A stretch of DNA of 48,702 bases. It comes from a virus. The notes beneath the pieces are model-generated. The model was not told where the DNA came from. It searched no databases and worked only from the letters and a program-made list of their open reading frames with translations. The stretch spans positions 1 to 48,702 of the IMG/VR virus record IMGVR_UViG_3300005613_000099; one strand, 5' to 3'. Below, piece by piece: positions 3,623 to 42,772 of the stretch (within the stretch, counting starts at the first letter, position 1; every line of letters begins with the position of its first letter). Both the position numbers and the translations under genes were made by a program.

Positions 3623-4698
3623 TATTCAGCCCACCTAAGAAACTTCTTGTTAGCATCAAAGATTGCCTTTCTACCGTTAACATTACGCACTATCTCTTCG
3701 GGTTGTTCTTTGTCAGGTTCTTCTCCTACCTCCCCTTCAAACAACAGCTCTGGTCTTATTTCGGAAGTGCCAAACAATCCAGCAGCAGTCTCGCTTAGCC
3801 ACTTATCCTTATTAGATACAAGTTCACCTATAGCCATATTAGTAGCAGTTGTAAGATCAAGAGTGCGTCCAGCATCTCTAGCCTCAGACATGTGTTTTTG
3901 CGCTCTATTAGCAGTAGCTTCAGCCAGTTTTTTCCTCGGCCCAGCATCTCTGCCGGGTAAATCTCCTAGGGTGGGATGATCTTTTATAAGATCTTCAGCA
4001 AAACCTACCTCGCTGGCATTAGCTTTCCGGGCCATAGTAGCCTTACCCTTTGGTTTGCCTGCGGCCTTAGCGGCTTCTTTTTCTAGTTCCTGTACATGTT
4101 CTATAATATCAGGCTGAGAATTTCTTAGAATACTGATTAACTGAGCCTGTTCTTCAGGAGGTGCAGCTAGAATAGCCTCGATAGTAGCATCCTCTTCAGG
4201 GCCACCAGCGTCTAACAAAGACTGTTTATTGGCAGCAATATAAGCAACAGCATCCTCTGTAGTTGGTTGGGATACAGCACCTAAGACGATATTACCATAT
4301 TCCTTAGCATTAGCTGTCTCGATTTCTCTCTCTTCTTTTGTAGCAGCTTGAGCTATCTCTTGACGTTTACGAGCCAATTCAGTTCGTAGTTTATCTCTTT
4401 CTAAGCCAGCGGTCTCAGCAGCAGCCTTTTCTTGAGCAGCAAGATATTCAGACTGGAGTTTACGAGTCTCTTCAGCCCTTCTAAGTTTACGTATAGGTGC
4501 ACCAGCGGCCTGTTCTTCTAGACCAGCCCTCTCAGACTCAATCTGAAGTCCTCTCAGCTCTTGTTCTTGACCCATACCCTGTAGCCTCATCTCCTCTAAA
4601 CCACGCTGACGGGCTTCCTCAGGGCGTTCTATGAAGCCTTTACGCATGTTTTCATACAACTTCTGTCCAGAAGCTGCAATAAGATCGTTTAGCGCCAT
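3622..4698 (-). CDS. Coiled-coil internal virion protein
   Basis: This 358-residue, highly charged protein is rich in Ala, Glu, Arg and Lys. Residues ~20-130 are predicted by eye to form a long coiled coil. It shares its stop/start bases with the large virion protein downstream and the Ala-rich protein upstream, so the three are translated together. In P22-like phages three ejection proteins lie in this position. I infer an ejection or core protein; there is no recognisable catalytic motif. Confidence 0.5.
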   Translation of the reverse strand: MALNDLIAASGQKLYENMRKGFIERPEEARQRGLEEMRLQGMGQEQELRGLQIESERAGLEEQAAGAPIRKLRRAEETRKLQSEYLAAQEKAAAETAGLERDKLRTELARKRQEIAQAATKEEREIETANAKEYGNIVLGAVSQPTTEDAVAYIAANKQSLLDAGGPEEDATIEAILAAPPEEQAQLISILRNSQPDIIEHVQELEKEAAKAAGKPKGKATMARKANASEVGFAEDLIKDHPTLGDLPGRDAGPRKKLAEATANRAQKHMSEARDAGRTLDLTTATNMAIGELVSNKDKWLSETAAGLFGTSEIRPELLFEGEVGEEPDKEQPEEIVRNVNGRKAIFDANKKFLRWAE

Positions 4699-5584: not shown

Positions 5585-5917
5585 TTATTCCTTATCCTCT
5601 AAGTAGCCCGTTATATCTTTAGATATTGTGGGAAAGGTATTTACTTTACTTAGTACATCTGTTAGTACTCTGTTATCACTTTTCATTTCATTCCTAAAGG
5701 ATTCAATAGCACTACCTGTACGAATCTGCTTACCCGTATTCTCAATAATAAGTTTAGGTAAGATAGCCATAGCGCAATAAGATTGATTGATGTCCTTGCC
5801 CGTTTGCGGGTCTTTGCCTGCTATCTCAGTGTACCAAGCGCAACGATGCACTTCCCCGTCTTTAACTTCTTCGCAGACAGACCCTAGAGGGCAAGTAGAT
5901 ATAGTTTTAATAGCCAT
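5585..5917 (-). CDS. Conserved phage protein with Cys cluster
   Basis: A 110-residue protein with four cysteines in the first half (CPLGSVC, CAWY, YCAM), a pattern compatible with a bound metal. Its sequence style is that of small proteins near the tail genes of podoviruses, but I do not know its function. It overlaps the fibre gene upstream by one base (TAATG). Confidence 0.55.
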   Translation of the reverse strand: MAIKTISTCPLGSVCEEVKDGEVHRCAWYTEIAGKDPQTGKDINQSYCAMAILPKLIIENTGKQIRTGSAIESFRNEMKSDNRVLTDVLSKVNTFPTISKDITGYLEDKE

Positions 5918-38116: not shown

Positions 38117-38383
38117 ATGAACGAGCCAAGCACATGCATTTCCATTGAGAAAAGTAAGCATTCCGATATGCAAGAAGCCATTGATGGTATGGAGTTTGTT
38201 GTTGCAAAAGCAGCCAGCCTGCTCGGCCGCATCAGCGGGGAAGGTATAGCGGAGTACCCTATGAGCGTTCCGCAAACTGAGCCTTCATTATCCAGTGTAC
38301 TTAACTCTGGGCCATCCGAGATCAGAGATAATTGCTCGAAAATACATGGCTACTTGGATGAGATCGAAGGCACTCTGTTTTAA
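38117..38383 (+). CDS. Hypothetical protein
   Basis: An 88-residue protein with helical ends (MQEAIDGMEFVVAKAASLLG and KIHGYLDEIEG). CAGGAG lies upstream of the ATG. It is the last gene before a terminator. The 95-base gap before it contains an AACACC/GGTGTT hairpin. Confidence 0.5.
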   Translation: MNEPSTCISIEKSKHSDMQEAIDGMEFVVAKAASLLGRISGEGIAEYPMSVPQTEPSLSSVLNSGPSEIRDNCSKIHGYLDEIEGTLF

Positions 38384-38408
38384 AGCAGGGTTTTTTGTTC
38401 ACAGCGCA

Positions 38409-38440
38409 GGCTCTGGCGCAACAAACAGAGCCTTTTGATT
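38409..38440 (+). terminator. Rho-independent terminator
   Basis: GGCTCTG (38409-38415) pairs with CAGAGCC (38426-38432), followed by TTTTGATTT. It would end the transcript that starts at 35131, immediately before the structured RNA region. Confidence 0.75.
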
Positions 38441-38720
38441 TGCACACTAGCGGCGTGGAAAGTAACTGAGTCGCAAAGCGTCACAGTGAGCGCAGACACG
38501 CGACACGAAAACTGAAGCTGAGTGTTGAGGGAACGTTGGAGAGATATTACACCGTACTATTTGGGCCTCTCCTCGCCTTAGTCACGACCTGAATTAACAG
38601 GTGATACCGCCCTAGAACTAATCGGTTGAAAGCTGGGGCTTAGGTGTAAGCAGAACGTGACATAACGGTAAGATAACACCCTGATCCTCTAGCCAGAGTA
38701 GCGACTGGCCTAGTGTGCAA
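38440..38720 (+). ncRNA. Structured RNA domain closed by an 11-bp stem
   Basis: No gene fits here. TTGCACACTAG (38440-38450) is the exact reverse complement of CTAGTGTGCAA (38710-38720), 260 bases apart. Inside are local hairpins: GCGTCA/TGA(G)CGC near 38481, GGAGAG/CTCTCC, ACCTG/CAGGT, GCTTA/TAAGC and GCCAG/CTGGC. Such nested pairing is strong evidence for a folded RNA. It may be the 5' domain of one long RNA continuing to about 39155. Size and context recall GOLLD RNA; I cannot test this against its consensus. Confidence 0.6.
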
Positions 38721-38738
38721 TTCAAAGTAAAGAGTTAT

Positions 38739-38940
38739 GGGCAGGTGGCGGAATTGGTAGACGCGCCTCTTGAGGTGGTAAAGGGCATAACGTGGATAGC
38801 ATGAAGTTTAGATCCGACGGGATTTATTCAAGCTTTGAAAGGCGAGATTGCTGGAAGCGGAAAGCACCTTAACGTGGAAGCGACGAGTGTACATTAATCG
38901 TGAAAGCGCCGCGCTGGTTCGAGTCCAGCCCTGCCCACCA
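38739..38940 (+). tRNA. tRNA-Leu-like RNA with a long insert at the anticodon arm
   Basis: The 5' end has the acceptor strand GGGCAGG, T-G, and a typical Leu D-arm (GCGGAATTGGTAGACGC). The 3' end has a perfect T-arm (GCTGG, TTCGAGT, CCAGC), acceptor strand CCTGCCC, A73 and CCA. In between are about 140 bases instead of an anticodon arm and variable arm. TTGAGGTG (38770-38777), where a GAG anticodon would lie, pairs over 8 bp with CACCTTAA (38865-38872). A variable-arm-like hairpin follows. It is either an interrupted tRNA or a tRNA-like domain of a larger RNA. Confidence 0.65.
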
Positions 38941-38949
38941 TATAGCCTG

Positions 38950-39155
38950 AGCATGCTAGTGTTGTGTTTGGTGTATCAGCAACACAATCCCTGCTCCGTG
39001 TGAGGTTGGTTGCGCGAAACAGCCAACCAAGCATGTTATGAACAATGGCGTGAAGCTGGTGTAAAAAGAGTTGGACAAAAGACGGGGACGCTGGGTTTCT
39101 AACATTCTCGAAAGAGCAGCGTACCACCCTAACCTACCGCCAGTGGATCGCCACC
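38950..39155 (+). ncRNA. Structured RNA module, copy A
   Basis: GCATGCT (38951-38957) pairs with AGCATGT (39030-39036). GGTTGGTTG (39004-39012) pairs with CAGCCAACC (39020-39028). CTGGTG (39056-39061) pairs with CGCCAG (39138-39143), and a short hairpin GTGG/CCAC ends the module. A 20-base stretch (38991-39010) and several loops are identical to copy B at 39828-39999, while paired bases change together. It ends 30 bases before the next gene. Confidence 0.7.
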
Positions 39156-39185
39156 TTACAAAGCAGAATATAGAGAGGAATGAGC

Positions 39186-39389
39186 ATGGAAATAAATAAC
39201 GTAACAGATGTATTAGAAACTAGCGTATTAGTTGGCGAAGAAGACGGGCCTAATTTTATTGATACGACTTTGCTGATGTACCTGATACCATATAAATGCG
39301 GATACGACGATGCGGAAGATGTTATATCTGATGGTAAAACACCGGCGATGAAGAAAGTGAGATTATACATAAGCATTGAAGACGCATAA
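39186..39389 (+). CDS. Small acidic protein
   Basis: A 67-residue protein. ATG 39186 has GAGAGGA 6 bases upstream; ATG 39180 touches that site. Sequence VLETSVLVGEEDGPNFIDTT, then VRLYISIEDA at the end. It is placed directly behind RNA module A. Not recognised. Confidence 0.5.
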   Translation: MEINNVTDVLETSVLVGEEDGPNFIDTTLLMYLIPYKCGYDDAEDVISDGKTPAMKKVRLYISIEDA

Positions 39390-39452
39390 CAAAGAGCTCA
39401 CGGGCGCAGATAATACATCCCACTATACAAAGTAGAAGGAGGTTTCTAAGAT

Positions 39453-39809
39453 ATGAAAATTATCATAGCCGGTTCTAGAAATATTTCTGATGGTTTTGCC
39501 TTATCTAGTGTAATGCGAGAAGCAGGATATATCCTAAAAGAAAATATAGACGAGATAGTTTCTGGTGGTGCTAGAGGGGTTGATAGATTAGGGGAAGTAT
39601 ATGCGAAGGAGCAGGGAATAACTATTAAAAGATTCCCAGCTGATTGGGAGCAGTACGGCAAGGCAGCTGGTTATATACGTAACGCTGAGATGGCTGAGTA
39701 TGCTGACGCCTTGGTTGTATTGTGGGATGGTCAAAGTAAAGGAACATTACACATGATCAATACTGCTGCTAAAAAAGGTATGCCAGTGTTTATTAAGGTT
39801 TTGACATAA
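39453..39809 (+). CDS. SLOG-family protein (YspA/DUF2493-like)
   Basis: A 118-residue Rossmann-like protein. MKIIIAGSRNISDG at the N-terminus and IVSGGARGVDRLGEVYA at residues ~32-48 form the nucleotide-binding site of the SLOG/DprA-like superfamily; ADALVVLWDG and a GT motif complete it. Such proteins are predicted to bind or cleave nucleotide-derived ligands. In phages they are small stand-alone proteins with unproven roles. GAAGGAGG precedes the ATG. It lies between the two RNA modules. Confidence 0.75.
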   Translation: MKIIIAGSRNISDGFALSSVMREAGYILKENIDEIVSGGARGVDRLGEVYAKEQGITIKRFPADWEQYGKAAGYIRNAEMAEYADALVVLWDGQSKGTLHMINTAAKKGMPVFIKVLT

Positions 39810-39827
39810 ATGTTTTGGTAGGAGAGA

Positions 39828-39999
39828 AGCATGCTTAACTGCTCCGTGTGAGGTTGGTGCTAACCAGTGGTAGCGTCCTGAGCCGTGAAAACGCACTAAG
39901 GCGGCGGCCAATCAAGCACGTTATGAATTATGGATGAAGCTGGCTGACCTCAGAATGTCGTGAGAGGTTGAAACTTGTCGCAGCCAGTGGATTCCACCA
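39828..39999 (+). ncRNA. Structured RNA module, copy B
   Basis: AGCATGCTT (39828-39836) pairs with AAGCACGTT (39914-39922, one mismatch). GGTTGG (39852-39857) pairs with CCAATC (39908-39913). CTGGCTG (39940-39946) pairs with CAGCCAG (39981-39987), and a GTGG/CCAC hairpin ends it. The 20-base core at 39839-39858 equals copy A. Copy B has a larger insert (39858-39907) with its own hairpins. Two more hairpins (CCCC/GGGG, ACCC/GGGT) follow before the next gene. Confidence 0.7.
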
Positions 40000-40052
40000 T
40001 ACCCCCCAAAACAGGGGCCGATAAGACCCTTAATGGGTAGCGAGGAGGGAAT

Positions 40053-40202
40053 ATGAGTGAAGATACATCATGGTCATGGGTAGAAACAATAATCCATTTA
40101 TTATTACTCATATCTGATGAGGAAAGAATGAAGGTATTTTCTGCATTTTGCACCCATTGCGGAGATAAAGATCCAGAATGCCCATGTTGGAATGATGAGT
40201 AA
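40053..40202 (+). CDS. Small protein with C-terminal zinc-binding motif
   Basis: A 49-residue protein; a hydrophobic centre (VETIIHLLLLI) and the end FCTHCGDKDPECPCWNDE, a cysteine pattern shared by many short phage proteins. GAGGAGGG precedes the ATG. Placed behind RNA module B as the previous small gene is placed behind module A. Confidence 0.6.
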   Translation: MSEDTSWSWVETIIHLLLLISDEERMKVFSAFCTHCGDKDPECPCWNDE

Positions 40203-41057: not shown

Positions 41058-41464
41058 TGCCTTACTACCGAAAGAAAAACTCCAAGGGCAAGCCCCCCAA
41101 GCCTTACCGATCATGGCTTGAACATGGGCTAGGTACTGGGGTTTTGAAGGATATGTCTTATGAACCCTACACCATCCCGTATACAGTCGAGACAAGCTAT
41201 AAACCAGATTTTGTCAACCAAGCGAAGCGCATTATCTTCGAAGCAAAAGGCCGGTTTGAATCCTCTACTGAAGCTGCCAAATACATTCATTTTCGTAACA
41301 GCAACCCCGACTGGACAATTATATTTGTGTTTGAACGACCAGACTGCCCGATGCCGCATTCTCGTAGACGAAAAGACGGTTCACGCTATCGTCACAGAGA
41401 TTGGGCTGAGAAGAATAATTTCCTCTGGTGTAGTCCCTCAACAATAAAGGGTGAATGGTTATGA
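41057..41464 (+). CDS. Endonuclease I / Holliday junction resolvase (T7 gp3-like)
   Basis: A 135-residue protein with SWLEHGL (Glu22), SYKPDFV and IIFEAKGRF, the acidic residues and lysine of the T7 endonuclease I active site. It resolves branched DNA before packaging and helps degrade host DNA. Overlaps exonuclease and RtcB genes at both ends. Confidence 0.85.
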   Translation: MPYYRKKNSKGKPPKPYRSWLEHGLGTGVLKDMSYEPYTIPYTVETSYKPDFVNQAKRIIFEAKGRFESSTEAAKYIHFRNSNPDWTIIFVFERPDCPMPHSRRRKDGSRYRHRDWAEKNNFLWCSPSTIKGEWL

Positions 41465-42687
41465 GTAAAGATAAGTTTCTTGTAGATAGCTCTCAACGCT
41501 GGCCTATCAAGCACTGGACACGTGGTGTAGATATGGATGAGAAAGCAATGGATCAGTTGCGTAATGTGGCTTCTATGCCGTTTATCTTTAAGCATGTAGC
41601 CGCTATGCCTGATGCTCATTGGGGGATGGGTGCAACCATTGGATCTGTGGTCGCTACCAAAGGGGCTGTGATTCCCGCAGCGGTTGGTGTTGATCTCGGT
41701 TGCGGCATGATGGCCGTGCAGACATCTCTTACCGCTAATGATCTGCCTGATAATCTTCATGAGATACGTCTGGATATTGAGCAGGCGGTTCCTCATGGGC
41801 GTACAAACAACGGTAAGAAGGGCGACCGAGGCGCATGGGCAGAATTGCCTGCCTCTCATAAGCAGCGTTGGTTAATCCTCAAGGAGCGTTACGACAAGAT
41901 TATCTCCAAACATCCTAAAGCTGAAGGTTACAATACTTGGCAGCATATGGGTACGCTAGGCACAGGTAATCACTTCATTGAAGTATGCCTTGACCAAAAT
42001 GATGCTGTCTGGGTAATGCTTCACTCAGGTTCTCGCGGTGTTGGTAACAAGATTGGTCAGTACTTTATCGAGAAGGCTAAAGAGGAAATGGAACGCTACC
42101 ATATCTTGGATAATCTGCCTGACAAGGATTTATCCTACCTTGTAGAGAATACTGAGTTATATGATGATTATGTTGAAGCTGTTGAGTGGGCTCAGGATTA
42201 TGCTCTTGAGAACCGAAAGGCTATGATGGAGAATAGTTTGGCAGTTCTTCGTAACCACTTACCACCATTTGCTATTACAGAAATGGCTGTCAATTCACAT
42301 CATAATTATATTGCTAAGGAGAACCATTTTGGTAGTAATGTGATCGTGACTCGCAAAGGCGCGGTGAGGGCGCGTAAGAACGATCTAGGCATTATTCCCG
42401 GTTCTATGGGCACGGGTTCATTCATTGTACGTGGTCTTGGAAACGAACAGTCCTTCTGTTCTTGCTCACATGGCGCTGGTCGGGTTATGTCCAGAGGTCA
42501 GGCTAAGAAAGAGATCAGTCTGGAACAACATGCTAAGGCTATGGAGGGTATTGAAGCTCGTTTGGATAAAGATGTCCTTGATGAGAGCCCCGCAGCGTAC
42601 AAGGATATTGGTGCGGTTATGGCTGCTCAGGACGATCTCGTTGAGATTCTTTATCGTTTACGTCAAGTAGTCAACATTAAGGGTTAA
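41461..42687 (+). CDS. rtcB: RtcB RNA ligase
   Basis: A 408-residue RNA ligase joining 2',3'-cyclic phosphate (or 3'-phosphate) to 5'-OH ends with GTP and Mn2+. Metal ligands are in GVDLGCGM (Asp78, Cys81), GTGNHFIEV (Asn170, His171), HSGSRG (His188) and NSHHNY (His281). His337 in CSCSHGAGR is the guanylated residue. All appear intact. ATG 41461 lies 9 bases after AAGGG. A tRNA-Pro gene follows by 8 bases, so repair of tRNAs cut by host anticodon nucleases is a reasonable role. Confidence 0.92.
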   Translation: MSKDKFLVDSSQRWPIKHWTRGVDMDEKAMDQLRNVASMPFIFKHVAAMPDAHWGMGATIGSVVATKGAVIPAAVGVDLGCGMMAVQTSLTANDLPDNLHEIRLDIEQAVPHGRTNNGKKGDRGAWAELPASHKQRWLILKERYDKIISKHPKAEGYNTWQHMGTLGTGNHFIEVCLDQNDAVWVMLHSGSRGVGNKIGQYFIEKAKEEMERYHILDNLPDKDLSYLVENTELYDDYVEAVEWAQDYALENRKAMMENSLAVLRNHLPPFAITEMAVNSHHNYIAKENHFGSNVIVTRKGAVRARKNDLGIIPGSMGTGSFIVRGLGNEQSFCSCSHGAGRVMSRGQAKKEISLEQHAKAMEGIEARLDKDVLDESPAAYKDIGAVMAAQDDLVEILYRLRQVVNIKG

Positions 42688-42695
42688 AAGTTTAT

Positions 42696-42772
42696 CTGTG
42701 CGTAGCTCAGTTTGGTAGAGTTCTCGGTTTGGAACTGAGATGTCGCAGGTTCAAATCCTGCCGCGCAGACCA
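42696..42772 (+). tRNA. tRNA-Pro (anticodon TGG)
   Basis: Complete cloverleaf with encoded CCA: acceptor CTGTGCG/CGCGCAG (one G-U), D-arm GCTC/GAGT, anticodon stem CTCGG/CTGAG with loop TTTGGAA and TGG at 42730-42732, T-arm GCAGG/CCTGC with TTCAAAT, discriminator A. It would read CCA/CCG and other proline codons. Confidence 0.93.

Follow-up and report, generated by a model that had tools for sequence, protein, structure and literature searches.

A putative anticodon-less tRNA-Leu-like RNA within a chain of candidate structured RNA modules in a phage genome

The tRNA fold can act as a casing or an end cap, as in the tRNA-like structures at the ends of plant-virus RNA genomes and in tRNA scaffolds, which are engineered and artificial. 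In tmRNA (RF00023), the tRNA-like domain is a shell of acceptor and T-arm that closes a long non-tRNA insert and has no anticodon arm. Phages also carry GOLLD and ROOL RNAs, which often occur close to tRNA islands; the GOLLD linker itself may contain tRNAs (PMC12286853). Theta ribozymes are another phage-borne group, small HDV-like structured RNAs tied to tRNA genes and found within 5 nt of tRNA 3′ ends (PMC10879173). The locus described here shares features with each of these systems. Like GOLLD and ROOL (PMC12286853), it is phage-borne non-coding RNA near tRNA-like genes, but it has no covariance-model match to either family and appears to consist of separate modules rather than one RNA. Its tRNA-like module resembles the tmRNA domain in its shell, its long insert and its missing anticodon arm, but keeps a full Leu-type D-arm. 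As in plant-virus structures and engineered scaffolds, the tRNA fold may serve as a casing, although here the kind to which it belongs occurs as a discrete gene in dsDNA phages.

The gene-free region and its modules

The window, 48,702 bases long, spans an entire viral record and has genes for terminase, portal, primase/helicase, polymerase and RtcB among other phage genes. As predicted, it contains a gene-free stretch between a terminator and a small gene: there is no plus-strand open reading frame (ORF) of at least 60 aa between 38383, where an 88-aa ORF ends, and 39180, where a 69-aa ORF starts, and a terminator-like site lies at 38372-38391. The sole ORF wholly inside this region is 77 aa long, on the minus strand and without a Pfam match, the neighbouring genes are mostly on the plus strand, and nothing resembling a sigma-70 promoter was found between 38383 and 39180. 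The only blast matches of the region to known phages and plasmids came from a SLOG-like gene at 39453 and have no bearing on the RNA. Further downstream, the RtcB RNA ligase gene (41455-42687), closest to those of Mesorhizobium, Erythrobacter and Sphingobium phages, is followed after 8 nt by tRNA-Pro(UGG), the only canonical tRNA gene of the window (span of the pair, 41455-42772).

The original prediction was a GOLLD relative or a new large RNA family at 38440-39155. Since phage GOLLD and ROOL often lie near tRNA islands and GOLLD linkers can contain tRNAs, this analogy was reasonable, though membership fails. GOLLD, ROOL and HEARO are single RNAs of about 570-800 nt that form RNA-only multimers. 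We found no match to any of them at the gathering score when the whole window was searched with all 4227 families of Rfam 15 (cmscan), nor at E<=10 across 38300-40100, where matches were at chance level only; membership of the three families is thus not supported by the covariance models. The only feature of the whole window above an Rfam cut-off was tRNA-Pro (42696). The idea of a new large RNA family survives in part: uncatalogued structured RNA is present, but as at least three modules (Table 1) rather than one giant RNA. We read them as separate because M2 has its own 5′ end and an encoded CCA 3′ end, and because M3 recurs elsewhere without M1 or M2. The region thus appears to be an island of separate structured RNAs.

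Table 1. Modules of the gene-free region and their parts, in window positions
Feature	Positions	Strand	Basis
M1, candidate RNA domain of about 293 nt closed by a long-range stem	38434-38726	+	Stem and fold z-score
M1 closing stem, 5′ arm	38434-38450	+	17 nt, 94% complementary
M1 closing stem, 3′ arm	38710-38726	+	17 nt, 94% complementary
M2, putative anticodon-less tRNA-Leu-like RNA, shell plus insert, 202 nt	38739-38940	+	Acceptor, D-arm, T-arm, A73, CCA
M2 acceptor stem, 5′ strand GGGCAGG	38739-38745	+	7/7 pairs with 38930-38936
M2 D-arm, tRNA-Leu type, GCG GAATTGGTAGA CGC	38748-38764	+	3/3 D-stem pairs
M2 insert, 148 nt, where anticodon and variable arms would lie	38765-38912	+	No anticodon arm at tested splits
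M2 T-arm, GCTGG TTCGAGT CCAGC	38913-38929	+	5/5 T-stem pairs
M2 acceptor 3′ strand, discriminator A, encoded CCA	38930-38940	+	Sequence
M3, conserved two-domain RNA motif, first copy	38991-39155	+	Similarity to second copy
M3′, second copy, outside the predicted interval	39839-39998	+	Similarity to M3

Conceivably, the whole of 38440-39155 could nevertheless form a single giant structured RNA, about 720 nt in length and similar to GOLLD in kind rather than by family, in which the tRNA-like unit would be an internal domain. The modules lie on one strand, 12 nt (M1-M2) and 50 nt (M2-M3) apart, with no promoter-like site between them; GOLLD linkers sometimes contain tRNAs (PMC12286853), and in another contig (L389:3837-4570) a ROOL RNA ends 6 nt before an interrupted tRNA-Leu. 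However, M3 recurs alone, both in the window and in the viral contig L087, M2 has mature-type ends of its own, no large-RNA family of Rfam matches, and the whole region folds near chance, only slightly better than its own shuffles (z = -1.25). We therefore consider a single giant RNA very unlikely. The many local hairpins that had been predicted likewise do not exceed chance for the stretch as a whole, but two sub-modules do better, M1 (z = -3.0 on the plus strand) and M3 (z = -2.1), with boundaries for these z-scores chosen by the analyst.

Returning to the separate modules, the predicted 11-bp stem that closes M1 (38440-38450 with 38710-38720) is present and extends to 17 nt with one mismatch. 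Taken alone it is marginal, as an exact inverted repeat of at least 11 bp occurs in 7 of 200 dinucleotide shuffles and the score of the extended stem is reached in 28 of 300 shuffles. The fold z-score on the minus strand is -1.8, and no homolog of M1 was found in annotated phages. From closing stem and fold energy only, we regard M1 with weak to moderate confidence as a further candidate RNA domain.

The tRNA-Leu-like module M2 and its relatives in other phages

From 38739 to 38940, M2 reads GGGCAGG-TG-GCG-GAATTGGTAGA-CGC, 148 nt, GCTGG-TTCGAGT-CCAGC-CCTGCCC-A-CCA, so that every pair of the acceptor, D- and T-stems is intact and U8, A14, G18G19, the T-loop, A73 and CCA can all be read directly. 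The T-arm consensus occurs on either strand of the contig only in M2 and tRNA-Pro, which makes the predicted tRNA-like unit stronger than had been claimed, and GAATTGGTAGAC of the D-arm is present in a single copy on the plus strand of the window. M2 has in common with tRNA-Leu, such as tRNA-Leu(GAG), the D-arm, T-arm, A73 and some letters of the anticodon loop, but it is 202 nt long rather than about 86 and lacks the variable arm as well as an anticodon arm, continuous or intron-split. In its acceptor, its D- and T-arms and its CCA, M2 is like a tRNA. ARAGORN reported no canonical or intron-bearing tRNA in M2, intron options included, and no tmRNA; the only tmRNA signal (cmscan, E<=10) was a weak T-arm fragment of 10.6 bits. 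Folding of the insert is not better than that of its shuffles (z = +0.3), with no homolog and no covariation found. A tmRNA-like GACGGGATTT in the insert was judged a chance occurrence because it belongs to a simple hairpin. M2 and the M3 core are complementary over 9 nt, which by a hand estimate is no more than chance would give and was not considered further. A blast link to Pseudomonas phage Y6 was set aside, the match being an ordinary tRNA-Leu(GAG) beside tRNA-Met, within a stretch of bacterial appearance.

Two pattern scans of IMG/VR for a tRNA-Leu D-arm and a T-arm 85-154 nt apart yielded at least 240 stretches. At least 95 other contigs carry a shell with a 7/7 acceptor and no canonical tRNA; the set was found with one exact D-arm, and its Leu specificity is partly search bias. 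By inspection and ARAGORN, M2 has the features of the proposed class (Leu D-arm, T-arm, 7/7 acceptor, no canonical tRNA). There are at least 82 different inserts including that of M2 (at least 81 besides it), 51-149 nt long and nearly all mutually unrelated, and their mean fold z-score is about -1.0 among the listed shells, M2 included. The acceptor of the shell covaries, as between contigs L387 and L447, and one insert family occurs within two different acceptors (L409, L460). Several of 21 shells examined occupy the gap between two protein genes. The 85-114 pattern, for shorter inserts, gave 0 hits in 295 genomes drawn from the class of a Chryseobacterium (G159), the genome behind shell contig L210, and a high-identity comparison of nine Leu shells with annotated phages found none.

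As to known RNAs, Rfam treats some of the shells as tRNAs carrying long insertions, and no description of anticodon-less Leu shells in phages was found in the open-licence literature, which is weak evidence of novelty. The kind of shell to which M2 belongs, present in many phages, is absent from Rfam, though such shells were already visible as odd tRNAs. tmRNA occurs beside shells in some phages: in one contig (L436:2666-3198) the shell begins at the base directly after a tmRNA, and 5 of 50 shell records contained a tmRNA above the cut-off, compared with none of 50 controls, which were unmatched for length and tRNA content. Other neighbours include a permuted-tmRNA match 11 nt after a shell (L305:860-1210) and a type II hammerhead about 220 nt before one (L409:9217-9650). 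In three inserts (L240, shell at 5747 on the reverse strand; L316, 5552; L344, 7397), a second degenerate tRNA-like unit was noted by eye, with D-arm-like and T-arm-like stretches, as if a tRNA were nested in a tRNA.

Interpretation of M2

Phages also encode tRNAs that are interrupted within the anticodon arm, between positions 28 and 29, and these provide a comparison for the shells. Searching for the common D-arm CAGTTGGTAGAGC followed by a gap of 60-89 nt yielded 121 matches, 83 of them with a 7/7 acceptor and no canonical tRNA. Of 71 distinct inserts, 20 left a perfect anticodon arm when excised at 28/29, where shuffles averaged 0.17 and never exceeded 2; excision at 29/30 restored the arm for 12 inserts. 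The inserts share recurrent motifs, GTTACTT in 11 and ACAGCAA in 13, whereas shuffled 7-mers reach at most 5. These motifs adjoin the anticodon hairpin in two recurrent insert families, and the inserts are about 45-65 nt long (L485-L602, for example L570, L556, L537, L485 and L547). One such interrupted tRNA is also found in named jumbo phages, mostly annotated as tRNA-Lys, including Cronobacter phage GAP32 (L604:1501-1627). M2 shares with them an insert and an intact acceptor, D-arm and T-arm. In the Leu set, by contrast, excision of the insert did not restore an anticodon arm above chance, an intact internal anticodon arm was not found above chance either, and M2 gave a perfect anticodon arm at no split tested. 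The contrast is strong, although the two sets differ in D-arm and gap length and are not perfectly matched, and three members of the Leu set are exceptions in which an interrupted anticodon arm is restored (L386, L389, L479). Since M2 shows no such restoration and the Leu set no excess of it, we group M2 with the anticodon-less shells rather than with the interrupted tRNAs. Excision tests judged by ARAGORN were uninformative, as shuffled inserts were accepted as readily.

These results bear on the possibility that M2 is an ordinary tRNA-Leu gene with a removable intron, perhaps sealed by the RtcB of the phage to give a working tRNA. Phage tRNAs interrupted at 28/29 do exist, the window encodes RtcB, and M2 retains TTGAGGTGGTA, which resembles the anticodon loop and 3′ stem of tRNA-Leu(GAG). 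However, besides the missing anticodon arm and the failure of ARAGORN with intron options, RtcB was found in 0 of 22 records (21 shell-bearing and that of L087) and in just 3 of 50 records with interrupted tRNAs (controls, 0 of 50), these records often being fragments; RtcB-dependent splicing of shells was rejected on these counts. With no restored anticodon arm, and with almost all comparable records lacking RtcB, we do not favour an interrupted tRNA that RtcB seals and consider it unlikely. More improbable still, in our assessment, is that M2 is a decaying tRNA-Leu(GAG) gene with an insertion from which no useful RNA is made. Loop-like letters that persist beside a broken anticodon stem, and an insert that folds no better than chance, would fit decay, but decay is not expected to spare the acceptor, T-stem, D-stem, A73 and CCA all together, and the same outcome is seen in the other shell-bearing contigs with unrelated inserts.

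We propose instead, at about even chances, that M2 is a phage-encoded anticodon-less tRNA-Leu-like RNA, in which the shell would confer tRNA processing, stability and possibly leucylation on a variable payload. Because acceptor and elbow are intact, the transcript would be cut by host RNase P and matured at its 3′ end like a tRNA. Leucyl-tRNA synthetase in bacteria is not known to require the anticodon, and M2 may for that reason be charged by this enzyme. The tRNA shell would then be a natural scaffold that stabilises, and perhaps leucylates, the payload RNA, and the insert may have a regulatory or decoy role. A broader proposal, which we hold tentatively and with somewhat less than even confidence, is that anticodon-less tRNA-Leu-like RNAs form a large, so far unrecognised class encoded by phages, with shells possibly charged with leucine independently of the anticodon and with hypervariable payloads, of which the locus in the window is a member set in a chain with the new modules M1 and M3.

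Should M2 and its relatives prove to be expressed and processed, the tRNA fold would serve phages as a general casing in which diverse non-coding RNAs are carried, a natural counterpart of the laboratory tRNA scaffold. Given that ARAGORN misses the shells and Rfam scores some as long-insert tRNAs, counts of phage tRNAs and RNA searches would need correction. Leucylated RNAs that are unable to decode would be a new route to affect host translation, and the contrast between tRNAs interrupted at 28/29 and anticodon-less Leu shells is directly testable.

The two-domain motif M3

The predicted folded 3′ module was recovered as M3, ending at 39155 as foreseen; its second copy, M3′, had been missed. 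The two copies share 20 identical nucleotides and a further 38 nt at 84%. When one part of the M3 core was used as a scan pattern, a single viral contig was found, L087, which also holds the remaining parts of the core, outside the pattern, and proteins of its 14.6-kb stretch gave no match to those of the window at E<1e-3. No further copies were found, the pattern scans giving L087 only and the model R1 finding only the record of L087 among 50; the score of M3 itself with this model (E = 2.3e-16) is by construction. The proposed helices are CGUG/CAYG, GGUUGG/CCAAYC, UGG(C)R/Y(G)CCA and GCUGGY/GCCAGU; the internal loops are invariant, and the loop domains vary in length and sequence. Across the three sequences, 98.4% of cells pair, compared with 20-54% when the alignment is slid. 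Covariation amounts to one double change and one matched indel, a level reached by 179 of 500 shuffles, and significance is unattainable because there are only three sequences. From these sequence comparisons, we read M3 as an independent new RNA motif shared between apparently unrelated phages. Theta ribozymes are likewise small structured phage RNAs tied to tRNA genes (PMC10879173), but M3 starts 51 nt after M2 and has no Rfam ribozyme match.

All three copies lie 24-84 nt upstream of the start of a small ORF, and this spacing, together with a conserved core and variable peripheral loops, would suit a cis-acting, riboswitch-like leader that controls the small gene after each copy, as opposed to an RNA that is free or mobile. 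Such spacing carries little weight, however, because 3′ neighbours in phages are almost always close, and the three downstream proteins differ by inspection and share no family; we therefore regard a leader as rather unlikely, though less so than the alternatives considered for M2. One feature of the L087 copy of M3 (4367-4659) was noted by eye: a T-arm-like GGGTTCAAATCC lies in its P3 loop, which gives the motif the look of having a tRNA-like unit nested inside.
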